The notes under the pieces are model-generated. The model made no database searches. It saw only the letters and a program-made list of their open reading frames with translations, and was not told the origin of the DNA. From an uncultured Oscillospiraceae bacterium (lineage in GTDB: Bacteria > Bacillota > Clostridia > Oscillospirales > Oscillospiraceae), in contig CAKUJN010000013.1 in the NCBI GenBank assembly GCA_934661735.1, positions 1 through 33,456 of the forward strand: a DNA stretch of 33,456 nt, in the 5' to 3' direction. Each line of letters begins with the position of its first letter. Position 1 is the first letter of the stretch. Below, piece after piece: positions 1 to 11,170 of this stretch. The position numbers were made by a program, and so were the translations under genes.

Positions 1-1148
1 GCGCCGCCTGCGACGAGGTCATCTCCGGCCAGCTCAACGATCATTTTCCGCTGGTCGTGTGGCAGACCGGCTCCGGTACGCAGTCGAACATGAACGCCAA
101 CGAGGTCATAGCCAATCGCGGCAACGAAATCGCGGGCAGGAAGCTTCTGCACCCGAACGATGATATCAACATGTCGCAGTCGTCCAACGACACGTTCCCC
201 ACGGCGATGCACATCGCCGCCGTGGAAGCGATTGAGGACCGCGTGCTGCCGGCAATCGACCTGCTGACGGCGACATTCCGCCGTCTGGAGGAGGAAAACC
301 GCGGCGTGGTCAAATCCGGCCGCACGCATCTTCAGGATGCGACGCCGATTGAGTTTTCACAGGAAATCTCCGGATGGAGAAGCTCGCTGGAAAAGGACCG
401 CAGAATGCTGGAGCTGGCGCTTCCGTGCCTGCATGAGCTGGCGCTGGGCGGCACGGCCGTTGGCACGGGCCTGAACGCGCTGAAGGGCTTTGACAGGCTG
501 GTTGCGGAGAAGATTTCCGCGCTGACGGGCAGACAGTTTGTGACGGCGGAAAACAAATTCCACGCGCTGACCAGCAAGGACGAGCTTGTCTTTGCGCACG
601 GTGCGCTCAAGGCGCTGGCTGCCGATATGATGAAGATTGCGAACGATGTGCGCTGGCTGGCCTCCGGCCCGCGCGACGGCCTCGGCGAGATTTTCATTCC
701 CGAAAACGAGCCGGGCTCGTCCATCATGCCGGGCAAGGTCAACCCCACCCAGTGCGAGGCTGTCACGATGGTCGCCGTGCAGGTCATGGGCAACGACGTC
801 GCCGTGGGCATGGCCGCGTCGCAGGGCAATTTTGAGCTGAACGTGTTCATGCCGGTGTGCATCTATAATTTCCTGCAGTCTGCGCGTCTGCTGGCCGAGG
901 CGATCACGTCGTTCAACAACAACTGTGCCGTCGGTATCCGCGCAAACCGCGAAAAGATGCATCACAATCTGCACAATTCTCTGATGCTGGTCACGGCGCT
1001 TAATCCCTACATCGGCTATGAGAACGCGGCAAAAACCGCGAAAAAGGCGTTCAGAGAGAACATATCGCTGAAGGAAGCGTGCGTGCAGCTGGGCTTTTTG
1101 ACGGCGGAAAAATTCGACGAAGTATTCCATCCCGAGCAGATGGTCTGA
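1..1148 (+). CDS. fumC: Class II fumarate hydratase, 5' truncated
   Basis: Catalyses reversible hydration of fumarate to L-malate in the cytoplasm. The reading frame is open from base 3, so the gene begins before the window; about 381 C-terminal residues are present of a family usually near 460. Visible hallmarks are the TSSNDTFPTA-type substrate motif, the conserved histidine segment around HLQDATPIEFSQE, and the mobile loop signature GSSIMPGKVNP that defines the fumarase/aspartase superfamily. The GTGLN segment and the C-terminal domain favour fumarase over aspartase. Only 19 bases separate it from hdrB, so it is probably co-transcribed with the Hdr-Flx-Frd genes. In that context it would supply fumarate as terminal acceptor from malate. 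Fumarase rather than aspartase is the confident reading, though aspartase cannot be fully excluded without the N terminus. Confidence 0.93.
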   Translation, partial: AACDEVISGQLNDHFPLVVWQTGSGTQSNMNANEVIANRGNEIAGRKLLHPNDDINMSQSSNDTFPTAMHIAAVEAIEDRVLPAIDLLTATFRRLEEENRGVVKSGRTHLQDATPIEFSQEISGWRSSLEKDRRMLELALPCLHELALGGTAVGTGLNALKGFDRLVAEKISALTGRQFVTAENKFHALTSKDELVFAHGALKALAADMMKIANDVRWLASGPRDGLGEIFIPENEPGSSIMPGKVNPTQCEAVTMVAVQVMGNDVAVGMAASQGNFELNVFMPVCIYNFLQSARLLAEAITSFNNNCAVGIRANREKMHHNLHNSLMLVTALNPYIGYENAAKTAKKAFRENISLKEACVQLGFLTAEKFDEVFHPEQMV

Positions 1149-1167
1149 CGATTGCGAGGAACAACAC

Positions 1168-1959
1168 ATGACATTCTCTTATTTCCCAGGGTGCACGCTC
1201 AAAACCCGCGGCAAAGATCTGGATACATACGGCCGCCGCGCGTTCGCGGCGCTGGGAATCGAGCTTGCGGAACTGCCCGAGTGGCAGTGCTGCGGCGCGG
1301 TGTATCCCATGGCGCAGGATGAGATTGCGACCCGACTTTCCTCCGTGCGCGCGCTGGTTTCGGCAAGAGATCTTGGAAACGAACTGGTCACGCTGTGCTC
1401 GGCGTGCCATCACGTCATCAAGCGCGTCAACGGCGACATGAAAAACAACGAGACAATTGCCTCGCGTGTGCAGAATTATCTGAAGCTGGACGTTCCGTAT
1501 ACGGGCGAGACGACGGTGCTGCACTATCTTGAGGTGCTGCGCGACCGCGTCGGCTTTGACGAGCTGGCGAAAAGGGTTGTAAATCCACTGACGGGGCGCA
1601 GAATCGGCGCGTACTACGGCTGCCTGCTGCTGCGGCCAAGCCGCAAGCTGGGCTTTGACGATCCGGAAAATCCGACGATCATCGAGGACTTTATCCGCGC
1701 CATCGGCGCAGAGCCGGTCTATTACGCGCTGCGCAACGAGTGCTGCGGCGGCTATACGACTGTTGAGGGCAGGGGCTTTGCGCAGAAGCAGGTCAAAAAG
1801 GTCATGGACAACGCCCGCGCGTGCGGCGCGGAGGAGCTGATCACGGCCTGTCCGCTGTGCATGTACAATCTGAAGGAAAACGCGGAAAACGGCCTTCCGG
1901 TGTACTATTTCACCGAGCTTCTGGCAGAGGCTCTCGGCGTAAAGGAGGCGGCGGAATGA
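1168..1959 (+). CDS. hdrB: Heterodisulfide reductase subunit B-like protein
   Basis: A 263-residue protein with two CCG domains. The first uses C9, C41-C42, C77 and C80; the second uses C152, C192-C193, C228 and C231. This matches the CX31-39CCX34-36CX2C pattern that in HdrB binds the non-cubane [4Fe-4S] clusters that cleave disulfides. In methanogens HdrB reduces CoM-S-S-CoB; bacterial homologues act on other or unknown acceptors. The start has a GAGGA-type ribosome site. The stop overlaps the start of hdrC by ATGA. With hdrC, hdrA and the Flx-like genes it forms a complete HdrABC set. Because an FrdAB pair lies in the same unit, its physiological acceptor may be fumarate reductase or a small thiol; that part is inference. 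Confidence 0.9.
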   Translation: MTFSYFPGCTLKTRGKDLDTYGRRAFAALGIELAELPEWQCCGAVYPMAQDEIATRLSSVRALVSARDLGNELVTLCSACHHVIKRVNGDMKNNETIASRVQNYLKLDVPYTGETTVLHYLEVLRDRVGFDELAKRVVNPLTGRRIGAYYGCLLLRPSRKLGFDDPENPTIIEDFIRAIGAEPVYYALRNECCGGYTTVEGRGFAQKQVKKVMDNARACGAEELITACPLCMYNLKENAENGLPVYYFTELLAEALGVKEAAE

Positions 1960-9902: not shown

Positions 9903-9943
9903 CGGACGGCTCCGCGCGGGGCTTGCCAGTGCGGAGCCGTCTG
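9903..9943 (+). promoter_or_regulatory. Intercistronic hairpin before the transporter gene
   Basis: Bases 9906-9915 (ACGGCTCCGC) pair perfectly with 9931-9940; adding 9903-9905 with 9941-9943 gives a 13-pair stem with one G-U pair and a 15-base loop. No T run follows, so it is not a normal terminator. It lies between frdA and the transporter, just upstream of the AGGGGG ribosome site. It may protect the upstream mRNA from 3' decay or lower expression of the transporter. Confidence 0.6.
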
Positions 9944-9958
9944 AAATCAGGGGGATAT

Positions 9959-11170
9959 ATGAGCTTTTCCATGAACGCGGCCAACTTTCTGATGCTTTCC
10001 GTCTTTCTGATCGCCGCGCTCGGCTATCTGCTGGGCCGGATTACGATCAAGGGGATCAGCCTTGGAACGGCCGGCGTCTTTGTCATCGCGCTGGTCTACG
10101 GCGGCTTTTTCGGCGCGAACTTCAACTCGAAATTCGTCATTGAAGAGATCAACTACGCCTCGCAGGCGCTGAAGATCGTGGAAAACCTGGGACTGGTGTT
10201 CTTTGTCACGTCTGTGGGCTTCATTGCCGGTCCGAACTTCTTCAAAAACATGAAGAAAAACTTCAAATCCTATGTCCTGCTCGGCTTTGTGATCATCCTG
10301 TCCGGCGGCATCGCGGCGGTTTTGTGCCTGCTGGCTGCGCGCGGACTGGAATCCGGAACGGCGGGCTATGACCCGAAGCAGCTGACGGCCATGATCACCG
10401 GTCTGCTGTCCGGTGCGCTGACCTCCACGCCGGCGTTTTCGGCCACAAAGGAGGCCGTTGCGGCCCAGTATCAGGACGCGGTTACGGTGGGCTACGGCAT
10501 TGCGTATCTGTTCGGCGTGATCGGCGTGGTGCTGTTTGTGCAGCTGATGCCGCGCGTCGTGCACGCGGACATGGACGAGGAGCGGCGCAAAATCACGCAT
10601 GTGGAAACCGGCGATGTGGAAAAATACAAGGGAAAGCTGATTGAGTTTGACGATTTCGGCTTTACGCCGTTCGCTGTGGCGGCGGTGCTGGGCATTCTGG
10701 TCGGCTCTGTCAAGCTGTTCGGCTTCTTTTCTCTGACCACCACCGGCGGCACGCTGCTGATATCGCTGATTTTCGGCCATTTCGGCCATGTTGGCCGTGC
10801 GGACCTGATGCCGAGCCAGAAGGTGCTGGAGACGTTCCGCGAGCTGGGACTGATGGTTTTCCTGATCGGCGCGGGCGTTGCGGGCGGCATGAGCTTTGTC
10901 CGGTATTTCAAGCCCATCTACTTCCTCTATGGCATGATTATGACCCTCCTGCCGATGATTGTCGGCTATCTGCTGGCGCGGTATGTGCTGAAGCTGAATC
11001 TGCTGAATATTCTCGGCTCGATCACGGGCGGCATGACCTCTACGCCGGCGCTGGGTACGCTGATTCATGTTGCGCAGACCAGCAATGTCGCCTCGGCCTA
11101 CGCCGCGACGTATCCCATTGCGCTGATTGCCGTTGTATTGGTCACGCAGTTCCTTGTGACGGTATTCTGA
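9959..11170 (+). CDS. AspT/SucE-type C4-dicarboxylate exchanger or exporter
   Basis: A 403-residue polytopic membrane protein of the aspartate:alanine exchanger (AspT/YidE/YbjL) family. It is an internal duplication: each half has about five hydrophobic segments and a matching signature, TSTPA at 155-159 and again at 360-364. Many family members (about 540 residues) carry two TrkA_C domains in the central loop; here the loop is only about 38 residues (about 198-235), so those domains are absent. Related proteins include AspT (aspartate/alanine) and SucE1 of Corynebacterium (succinate export). Following fumarase and fumarate reductase, export of succinate or exchange of a C4-dicarboxylate is the likely job. 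The ATG at 9959 follows AGGGGG; a strong terminator follows the stop. Confidence 0.8.
   Translation: MSFSMNAANFLMLSVFLIAALGYLLGRITIKGISLGTAGVFVIALVYGGFFGANFNSKFVIEEINYASQALKIVENLGLVFFVTSVGFIAGPNFFKNMKKNFKSYVLLGFVIILSGGIAAVLCLLAARGLESGTAGYDPKQLTAMITGLLSGALTSTPAFSATKEAVAAQYQDAVTVGYGIAYLFGVIGVVLFVQLMPRVVHADMDEERRKITHVETGDVEKYKGKLIEFDDFGFTPFAVAAVLGILVGSVKLFGFFSLTTTGGTLLISLIFGHFGHVGRADLMPSQKVLETFRELGLMVFLIGAGVAGGMSFVRYFKPIYFLYGMIMTLLPMIVGYLLARYVLKLNLLNILGSITGGMTSTPALGTLIHVAQTSNVASAYAATYPIALIAVVLVTQFLVTVF

Follow-up and report, generated by a model that had tools for sequence, protein, structure and literature searches.

Can a soluble fumarate reductase be fed by an electron-splitting heterodisulfide reductase (Hdr) hub instead of a quinone pool? 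This question is raised by a 33,456-nucleotide contig of an uncultured Oscillospiraceae bacterium (CAKUJN010000013.1, assembly GCA_934661735.1; the whole stretch is called the window below), where positions 3 to 11170 hold eleven + strand genes, one after another, for a fumarase, an HdrABC-FlxABCD set, a FrdAB-type pair and a membrane transporter. A sequence-only reading of this DNA had proposed that the unit couples NAD(P)H oxidation to the reduction of both fumarate and ferredoxin. We consider it fairly probable that the operon encodes such a cytosolic, bifurcating NAD(P)H:fumarate/ferredoxin oxidoreductase. The features of the block are the following:

3–1148, + strand: fumC, class II fumarate hydratase, 381 residues visible, 5′ end outside the window
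1168–1959, + strand: hdrB-like, two CCG domains (PF02754, two stretches)
1956–2342, + strand: hdrC-like, 2[4Fe-4S] (TIGR03290, E 6e-18, under cut-off)
2355–4346, + strand: hdrA, full length, FAD and [4Fe-4S] clusters (5odc_A, E 9e-202 over residues 3–660)
4337–4774, + strand: flxD, MvhD-like (PF02662, E 1e-55; MvhD chain 5odc_D, E 2e-50)
4762–5736, + strand: flxC, Fe-S protein (4Fe-4S dicluster Pfam matches; position in the conserved order)
5733–6755, + strand: flxB, sulfhydrogenase-beta/AsrA-like Fe-S protein (PF17179; NF040829, E 2e-50, under cut-off)
6752–7579, + strand: flxA, FNR-like NAD(P)H:FAD subunit (PF00175, PF00970, PF10418; NF006220 and TIGR02911 under cut-off)
7592–8266, + strand: frdB, N-terminal [2Fe-2S] and two CxxCxxCxxxC [4Fe-4S] motifs (Fer2/Fer4 matches)
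8280–9878, + strand: frdA, FAD_binding_2 flavoprotein (PF00890, E 5e-76)
9903–9943, + strand: strong hairpin without T run in the frdA–transporter gap (−35.1 kcal/mol, z −5.5)
9959–11170, + strand: AspT/YidE/YbjL-type membrane transporter, 403 residues (TIGR01625, E 5e-38, over cut-off, two stretches)
11215–11252, + strand: terminator-like hairpin flanked by A and T (−35.5 kcal/mol, z −6.8)

Families were assigned by Pfam and NCBIfam scans (NCBIfam only for the transporter, Pfam only for FlxD), and most NCBIfam matches of the block proteins lie under the curated cut-offs. The tight junctions noted in the sequence-only reading are present: hdrB/hdrC, flxC/flxB and flxB/flxA overlap by ATGA, hdrA/flxD by 10 nt and flxD/flxC by 13 nt. 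The packing recurs in 112 related loci, 109 of them different (L012/L081, L025/L082 and L069/L090 are identical contigs), in which hdrA and flxD overlap at all 93 measurable junctions, flxD and flxC at 96 of 99, and frdB and frdA are never more than 30 nt apart (112/112).

The close relatives were found by searching genome contigs with FrdA; this gave at least 597 stretches, at least 585 of them encoding relatives; the best 80 were kept (75–84% identity), and a gene was recognised there when the match covered at least half of the query. Nearly all are metagenome-assembled genomes whose titles mostly give Oscillospiraceae, Ruminococcus, Christensenellaceae or unnamed Clostridia. L062 and L075 are titled Treponema and Spirochaetaceae, and a single strain has a name, the cultured Neobittarella massiliensis Marseille-P4047 (L065), whose block is complete from fumC to frdA. 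In these 80 loci frdB always lies directly 5′ of frdA, and the order from hdrB to frdA is identical in all 61 whose DNA reaches hdrB; the remaining 19 have the start of their first recognised gene at most 0.8 kb from the contig start. fumC precedes hdrB in 58 of the 59 loci that reach so far (L006 lacks it; L008 and L041 are cut). The order hdrBCA-flxDCBA-frdBA, whose conservation the sequence-only reading had left to be checked, is thus kept, and, given this identical order in relatives, the block is more than a chance arrangement.

The same holds across the order. We took an even sample of 197 genomes, mostly drafts, from the order to which G005 belongs (the genome behind locus L007, titled Candidatus Avoscillospira avistercoris). 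FrdA found a match at E 0.001 in 118 of them, but at 70% identity or more in only 36, G005 included, which we call carriers; the next full-length matches reach at most 39% identity, and short pieces up to 55%. Four carrier loci (L007, L044, L048 and L076) were already among the best 80, and complete; the others gave 32 further regions, three of which repeat best-80 contigs. The complete hdrB–frdA order is found in 33 of the 36 carriers, two being cut by contig ends and one holding frdBA alone: 29 of the 32 regions run from hdrB to frdA (among them L111, with frdA in two frames, and L105 and L110, which end within frdA). L082 and L090 are cut at contig ends, and fumC lies 5′ of hdrB in 25 of the 29 order-sample loci. 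HdrA (E ≤1e-60) occurs in 35 of the 36 carriers vs 1 of the 161 other genomes, that one at 48% identity (Fisher 1.6e-36, kinship ignored). The carrier of frdBA alone, with both genes intact, is L107 (G172:C2, minus strand, frdB at 4986–5660, frdA at 3367–4968), with unrelated genes upstream, and its 1.2-Mb draft genome contains no HdrA at E 1e-60 and no FlpD/FlxD match. The gene block is therefore real, widespread and strongly conserved, and the co-inheritance supports the view that Hdr-Flx and FrdBA are linked, as the earlier reading held, as an evolutionary unit.

Cofactor sites and the substrate of FrdA

Conserved residues were counted in a near set, whose rows span 90% or more of the window protein length, and then in more distant loci (second count where two are given). 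HdrA aligns to nearly the whole methanogen HdrA of 5ODC, and its K414 aligns with Lys409, which bonds the flavin N5 (PMC6405883); K414 is kept in 62/62 and 17/17 rows. The sixteen cysteines of the two ferredoxin-type domains of HdrA are present in 62/62 near rows; among distant rows, the eight of the C-terminal domain are kept in 17/17 and the eight of the inserted domain in 15/17. C67 and C544 are mostly lost in distant rows, and the 5ODC residue aligned with C67 is not a cysteine. All ten non-cubane cluster cysteines of solved HdrB chains (8rvv_B) have their match in HdrB (62/62 and 16/16), and HdrC keeps its eight cluster cysteines (62/62 and 17/17). The seven subunits of FlxABCD-HdrABC are thus encoded together, several of them on NCBIfam matches under cut-offs, with the FAD fold, [4Fe-4S] ligands and N5 lysine of HdrA and the two CCG motifs of HdrB. 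Two invariant terminal cysteines, HdrA C662 and FlxD C143, were considered as functional and rejected: their codons contain the ATG of the next gene, so their conservation probably reflects the overlapping genes (C662 is kept in 2/17 distant rows).

The fumarase belongs to the class II family (TIGR00979 fumC_II, 616 bits, E 4e-185; Lyase_1 and FumaraseC_C in Pfam), its 5′ truncation putting it under the 664.75 cut-off. For FrdA, the top NCBIfam model is TfrA (NF004900, 345.8 bits vs a cut-off of 718), the top PDB matches are succinate dehydrogenase 7d6v_A and L-aspartate oxidase 1chu_A, and Pfam gave no separate C-terminal Succ_DH domain match. Residues H319, E336, R339, H432 and R466 are present in 89/89 rows and align with conserved positions of complex II and aspartate oxidase, where they are the fumarate/succinate (dicarboxylate) residues. 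Because of these residues, the fumC gene here and the enzymes of C4 acids in relatives, the substrate of FrdA is very probably fumarate, as had been proposed.

Several known enzyme types were rejected for the pair. FrdA scores 274.9 bits as L-aspartate oxidase NadB (cut-off 452.75) and 213.8 bits with the flavocytochrome c fumarate reductase model TIGR01813 (cut-off 285.45), and has no cytochrome or haem domain. A quinol:fumarate reductase or complex II does not fit an operon with no cytochrome b or anchor and PF01127 in 0 of the 30 carrier genomes described below. A thiol:fumarate reductase TfrAB would have a C-terminal, HdrB-like CCG thiol site, which FrdB does not have, and TfrA stays below its cut-off.

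FrdB, of 224 residues, has weak PDB matches to RnfC and SdhB and no Pfam match to the CCG domain PF02754. Its eight [4Fe-4S] cysteines are invariant (76/76 and 31/31), and the cysteines of the [2Fe-2S] region are kept in 73–76 of 76 near rows, C62 being lost in distant ones. The FrdB of complex II carries a [3Fe-4S] centre at its quinone end; the two full four-cysteine motifs found here suggest a partner other than a quinone end. A protein search with FrdB listed at least 120 matches, and 5,654 of 5,816 candidates were at E 0.001 or better, a sign of breadth.

Where the electrons may go

From what is generally known of the Flx and Mvh/Hdr families, FlxA would accept a hydride from NAD(P)H, and FlxB, FlxC and FlxD would pass the electrons on to the FAD of HdrA. 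HdrA would split the pair, sending one electron via its own [4Fe-4S] clusters to ferredoxin and the other via HdrC, HdrB and FrdB to the FAD of FrdA, where fumarate would be reduced to succinate. FumC would feed FrdA by converting malate to fumarate, and the AspT-type protein, which is not constant in relatives, may export succinate. The net reaction would be 2 NAD(P)H + fumarate + 2 Fd(ox) → 2 NAD(P)+ + succinate + 2 Fd(red), Fd being ferredoxin. The standard potential E0′ of fumarate is +30 mV. Together with −320 mV for NADH and −420 mV for ferredoxin (PMC5861303), this gives a computed value of about −48 kJ/mol at standard potentials. From gene content and conserved sites we infer that the proteins form a complex that bifurcates and runs in the direction of fumarate reduction.

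Direct transfer from HdrB to FrdB is favoured over a thiol carrier. The model of TfrB (NF004898, cut-off 385 bits) matches FrdB (residues 12–87 on model positions 19–94, 39.8 bits), HdrC at 126–220 and HdrB at 414–487, these three at 32.9–39.8 bits, and FlxC at 131–203, still weaker. In the whole genome of G005, the model has six matches of at most 30.8 bits, of which HdrC and FrdB of the operon are the best two, FlxC and HdrB being also among the six. TfrB therefore looks like a fusion of parts that are separate in this operon, and the fusion, along with the hdrC-hdrB-frdB-frdA loci described below, suggests that HdrBC contacts FrdB and that Hdr feeds it directly.

Quinone and thiol partners were searched for in 30 carrier genomes, drafts, from the best 80. 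None had MenB (one weak match), Sdh_cyt or DsrC over cut-off, and MqnC gave weak matches in 24/30, all far under cut-off, which we read as radical SAM kinship. The same searches did find matches over cut-off in control genomes (MenB 7/14, MqnC 2/14, Sdh_cyt 7/14 and DsrC 1/14). The proposal of a route free of quinone and cytochrome b is thus supported in these carriers, and DsrC was rejected as a thiol partner.

Some observations weigh against the bifurcating route with direct transfer. The TfrB-model matches are weak and far under cut-off. The ten disulfide-reducing cluster cysteines kept by HdrB would fit thiol chemistry equally well, and the AlphaFold model of FrdB (pLDDT 57) is too poor for a fold search. 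Rnf is a natural sink for reduced ferredoxin, and 21 of the 30 carrier genomes do have RnfD over cut-off; in the order sample, however, it is rarer in carriers (26/36) than in the others (146/161), so that Rnf enrichment was rejected as support for ferredoxin coupling. Finally, five genomes with FrdBA have no HdrA match (G172 and, from the phylum sample below, G598, G517, G293 and G290), which indicates that another electron donor is probably usable. The tie between FrdBA and Hdr thus stands in 35 of the 36 order-sample carriers and fails in these five genomes.

The first alternative, which we regard as unlikely, is that a disulfide at HdrB is the second acceptor of a bifurcating Flx-Hdr and a dithiol, either diffusible or on a protein, then reduces FrdBA, or that HdrB oxidises thiols in the manner of thiol:fumarate reductase. 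The invariance of the HdrB cluster cysteines would agree with it, as would the union of FrdB-like and HdrB-like parts in the TfrB model, the existence of hdrCB-frdBA loci without a nearby hdrA, and the statement that Flx-Hdr passes electrons to ferredoxin and thiols (PMC7282089). However, FrdB is without a CCG domain, the 30 carrier genomes have no DsrC, and no additional constant gene stands between hdrB and frdA.

It also appears quite improbable that the parts are linked but do not bifurcate, both electrons going to FrdBA or HdrA being idle, in a plain NAD(P)H:fumarate redox sink. Such genes by themselves are no proof of bifurcation (PMC5861303), and Rnf is not enriched among carriers. But HdrA retains K414 and the cysteines of its C-terminal ferredoxin domain, and it is present with FrdA in 35 of the 36 carriers, although a plain sink should not need it.

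That FrdA acts on another unsaturated acid (FAD_binding_2 reductases vary in substrate, and urocanate reductase is among the PDB matches), or that the machine runs in reverse as a succinate dehydrogenase (FrdBA lies beside KorAB and SucCD in some relatives, where succinate oxidation would be possible), is very improbable given the conserved dicarboxylate residues, the fumC gene 5′ of hdrB in 58 of 59 best-80 and 25 of 29 order-sample loci, and a reverse reaction of about +48 kJ/mol at standard potentials.

The edges of the unit and its variants across the phylum

The sequence-only reading had the block end at a single terminator, with no internal one. The strong end hairpin at 11215–11252 stands (17 pairs, −35.5 kcal/mol vs −16.7 in shuffles), although it is missing from a consensus terminator scan, the likely reason being that the stem includes its T run. 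This hairpin could terminate the units of both strands, including that of a convergent minus-strand gene at 11274–11714, which by eye looks like one for a helix-turn-helix regulator with a zinc-ribbon part. The absence of an internal terminator is less certain. The 80-nt gap between frdA and the transporter gene contains the second strong hairpin (9903–9943), with no T run on its 3′ side. The transporter may therefore not simply share a transcript with frdA, and the hairpin may act on the amount or the processing of the transcript. The consensus scan also gave 17 terminator-like sites in 1–12000 (shuffles 12.6 ± 4.3) and 8 promoter-like sites (shuffles 3.3 ± 1.8), so internal promoters may be present. 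The operon promoter lies outside the window, and a single transcription unit is therefore something that we infer.

The transporter, which had been counted into the unit, is present in the window and follows frdA in 36 of the best 80 relatives, once on the opposite strand, and in 16 of the 32 order-sample loci, contig ends cutting some of the rest. It is a variable member of the unit.

Further along the window, a minus-strand gene at 25135–27219 looks by eye like a large membrane ATPase, and + strand genes at 29405–32151 like a sugar ABC transporter (binding protein and ATPase); both are ordinary neighbours.

More distant relatives were sought in a sample of 398 genomes of the same phylum as G005. 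FrdA was found at E ≤1e-90 in 39 of them, G005 included, and the other 38, at 51–64% identity, gave 39 loci, as G313 has two. Hdr and Flx genes lie beside frdBA in five of these (L172, L175, L176, L178 and L179). In another eleven, tandem HdrA-like genes or parts, with flxD and a FlxC-like gene, precede frdBA (L149, L150, L152, L153, L156, L157, L159, L166, L169, L173 and L174); hdrC-hdrB stands in front in the nine that are not cut, a KorA-cluster gene is nearby in 10/11 and a SucD-cluster gene in 10/11, and one tandem-HdrA-like protein is 1,070 residues long (L150). A larger complex joining 2-oxoglutarate and fumarate chemistry is possible there. Four loci (L158, L161, L170 and L177) run hdrC-hdrB-frdB-frdA with no hdrA within the stretch, to which the search in these genomes was limited, and look like an unfused thiol:fumarate reductase.

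The remaining 19 of the 39 loci have no Hdr gene upstream within the stretch, some of these being short, L165 being cut just before frdA, and L183 having a weak HdrC-like piece downstream. HdrA was found elsewhere in 14 of the 18 genomes behind them. In all 14, flxD follows the best hdrA, and in 12 hdrB and/or hdrC are joined by flxD-flxC-flxB-flxA (L192 is without flxA at a contig end); only flxD was found around the best HdrA in L200. No HdrA match at E 1e-60 was found in G598, G517, G293 and G290, where FrdA is present.

A quick tree of 89 FrdA rows, rooted at the midpoint and without bootstrap (L004, L016, L020 and L064, cut near contig ends, were labelled type I by kinship), places the window-type proteins in one group (SH-aLRT 99), which also contains L148 and three FrdBA loci linked to pyruvate carboxylase. 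L107 is nested within the Hdr-Flx clade, and so its frdBA alone reads as a loss of Hdr-Flx.

Neighbouring genes were scanned with one representative per cluster. Matches over cut-off were SucC, SucD, the alpha subunit of a 2-oxoacid:acceptor oxidoreductase, class I fumarase alpha and beta, pyruvate carboxylase and an aspartate ammonia-lyase type; KorB was below cut-off, malic enzyme and DcuC were recognised by Pfam, and Pfam at 1e-8 gave nothing for three neighbours in L151 or for the FlxC-like protein of L150. Such enzymes in several clades point to fumarate and succinate. The putative fumC beside FrdBA in L176 was rejected as such and is an aspartate ammonia-lyase (TIGR00839, 677 vs 681.2 bits; NF008909 over cut-off), and L175 has a 39%-identical lyase at the corresponding position. 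In L176 (G275:C2), a DcuC-type carrier, the aspartate ammonia-lyase, frdBA, hdrBCA and flxDC are consecutive, a row that looks like an aspartate-to-succinate unit.

Known systems and a possible wider role for FrdBA

The sequence-only reading had taken the operon link between Hdr-Flx and FrdAB to be unreported. Its Hdr-Flx/FrdBA unit, its fumarate and the lack of quinone markers hold, but that claim does not, as the link is already published (PMC7282089, PMC6315080): the arrangement and the bifurcation proposal have been known since 2019–2020 from another bacterium. In titles and the beginnings of abstracts, most subscription journals lying outside the search, no paper was found on the Oscillospiraceae spread or the hdrCB-frdBA form, and the excerpts of PMC12918512, PMC6776011 and PMC13248872 do not describe this operon. 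What is new here is the breadth, the variant architectures, among them FrdBA in genomes with no HdrA match, and the evidence on the electron route.

Taken jointly, these architectures lead us to suggest tentatively, as a possibility short of probable, that FrdBA is an exchangeable head of an Hdr hub across Bacillota. Its partners would be HdrBCA-FlxDCBA, tandem HdrA with KorAB/SucCD, HdrCB alone, or an Hdr-Flx set encoded apart, with HdrCB-FrdBA as a thiol:fumarate reductase split over four genes. The non-cubane clusters of HdrB would pass electrons directly to FrdB, so that the Hdr disulfide site would have become an internal wire, and quinone-free, bifurcating fumarate respiration of this kind would be common in gut Oscillospiraceae and their kin. 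If the coupling is real, many gut Clostridia, most of them uncultured, would conserve energy from fumarate reduction via ferredoxin and not via a quinone chain, and the yields of ATP and hydrogen attributed to succinate formation would change. Hdr would then also stand as a hub for electron splitting in general, with interchangeable acceptors. The HdrCB-FrdBA loci, the tandem-HdrA loci and FrdBA alone offer natural test cases for the exit of electrons from HdrB, and in L107 FrdBA occurs naturally without the donor that it usually has.

FlxABCD-HdrABC of Desulfovibrio vulgaris, reportedly linked to ethanol metabolism by Ramos in 2015 and said to be connected with DsrC, has the same seven subunits as the window, whereas the window type is locked to FrdBA and usually fumC, with no DsrC in the 30 carriers. 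Methanogen TfrAB resembles it in that TfrA is the best model for FrdA and parts of TfrB match FrdB, HdrC and HdrB, all below cut-off; unlike TfrB, FrdB of the window has no fused HdrB part, and a Flx-HdrA module is present. From MvhADG-HdrABC (5ODC) the window has clear homologues of HdrA, HdrB and MvhD (FlxD), and of HdrC by model, but its input would be NAD(P)H via FlxABC and not H2, and its acceptor FrdBA and not CoM-S-S-CoB. MetFV-HdrABC-MvhD of Moorella thermoacetica likewise joins an HdrABC hub to a soluble reductase as second acceptor, which there is methylene-tetrahydrofolate (PMC5861303). In tubeworm symbionts and Thioflavicoccus, flxABCD-hdrABC is interspersed with tfrAB and korABCD (PMC6315080); a complex uniting Flx-Hdr, TfrAB and Kor is proposed there, so that the notion of Flx-Hdr joined to a fumarate reductase is shared, but that system has TfrAB and a 2-oxoglutarate:ferredoxin oxidoreductase in a reverse TCA (tricarboxylic acid) cluster. 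The closest likeness is with the 'succinate operon' of Pseudoclostridium thermosuccinogenes (PMC7282089, which cites a 2019 preprint by Koendjbiharie and van Kranenburg, 10.20944/preprints201912.0288.v1). As described there, it comprises (CDQ83_RS03365–RS03315), in this order, a fumarate hydratase, seven Flx-Hdr and two fumarate reductase genes and a possible succinate transporter, its expression rises about 4-fold under CO2 limitation, and ferredoxin-coupled fumarate reduction is already assumed. The organism is a different one, and the comparison covers the described gene content and order, in both of which the window agrees with that operon.

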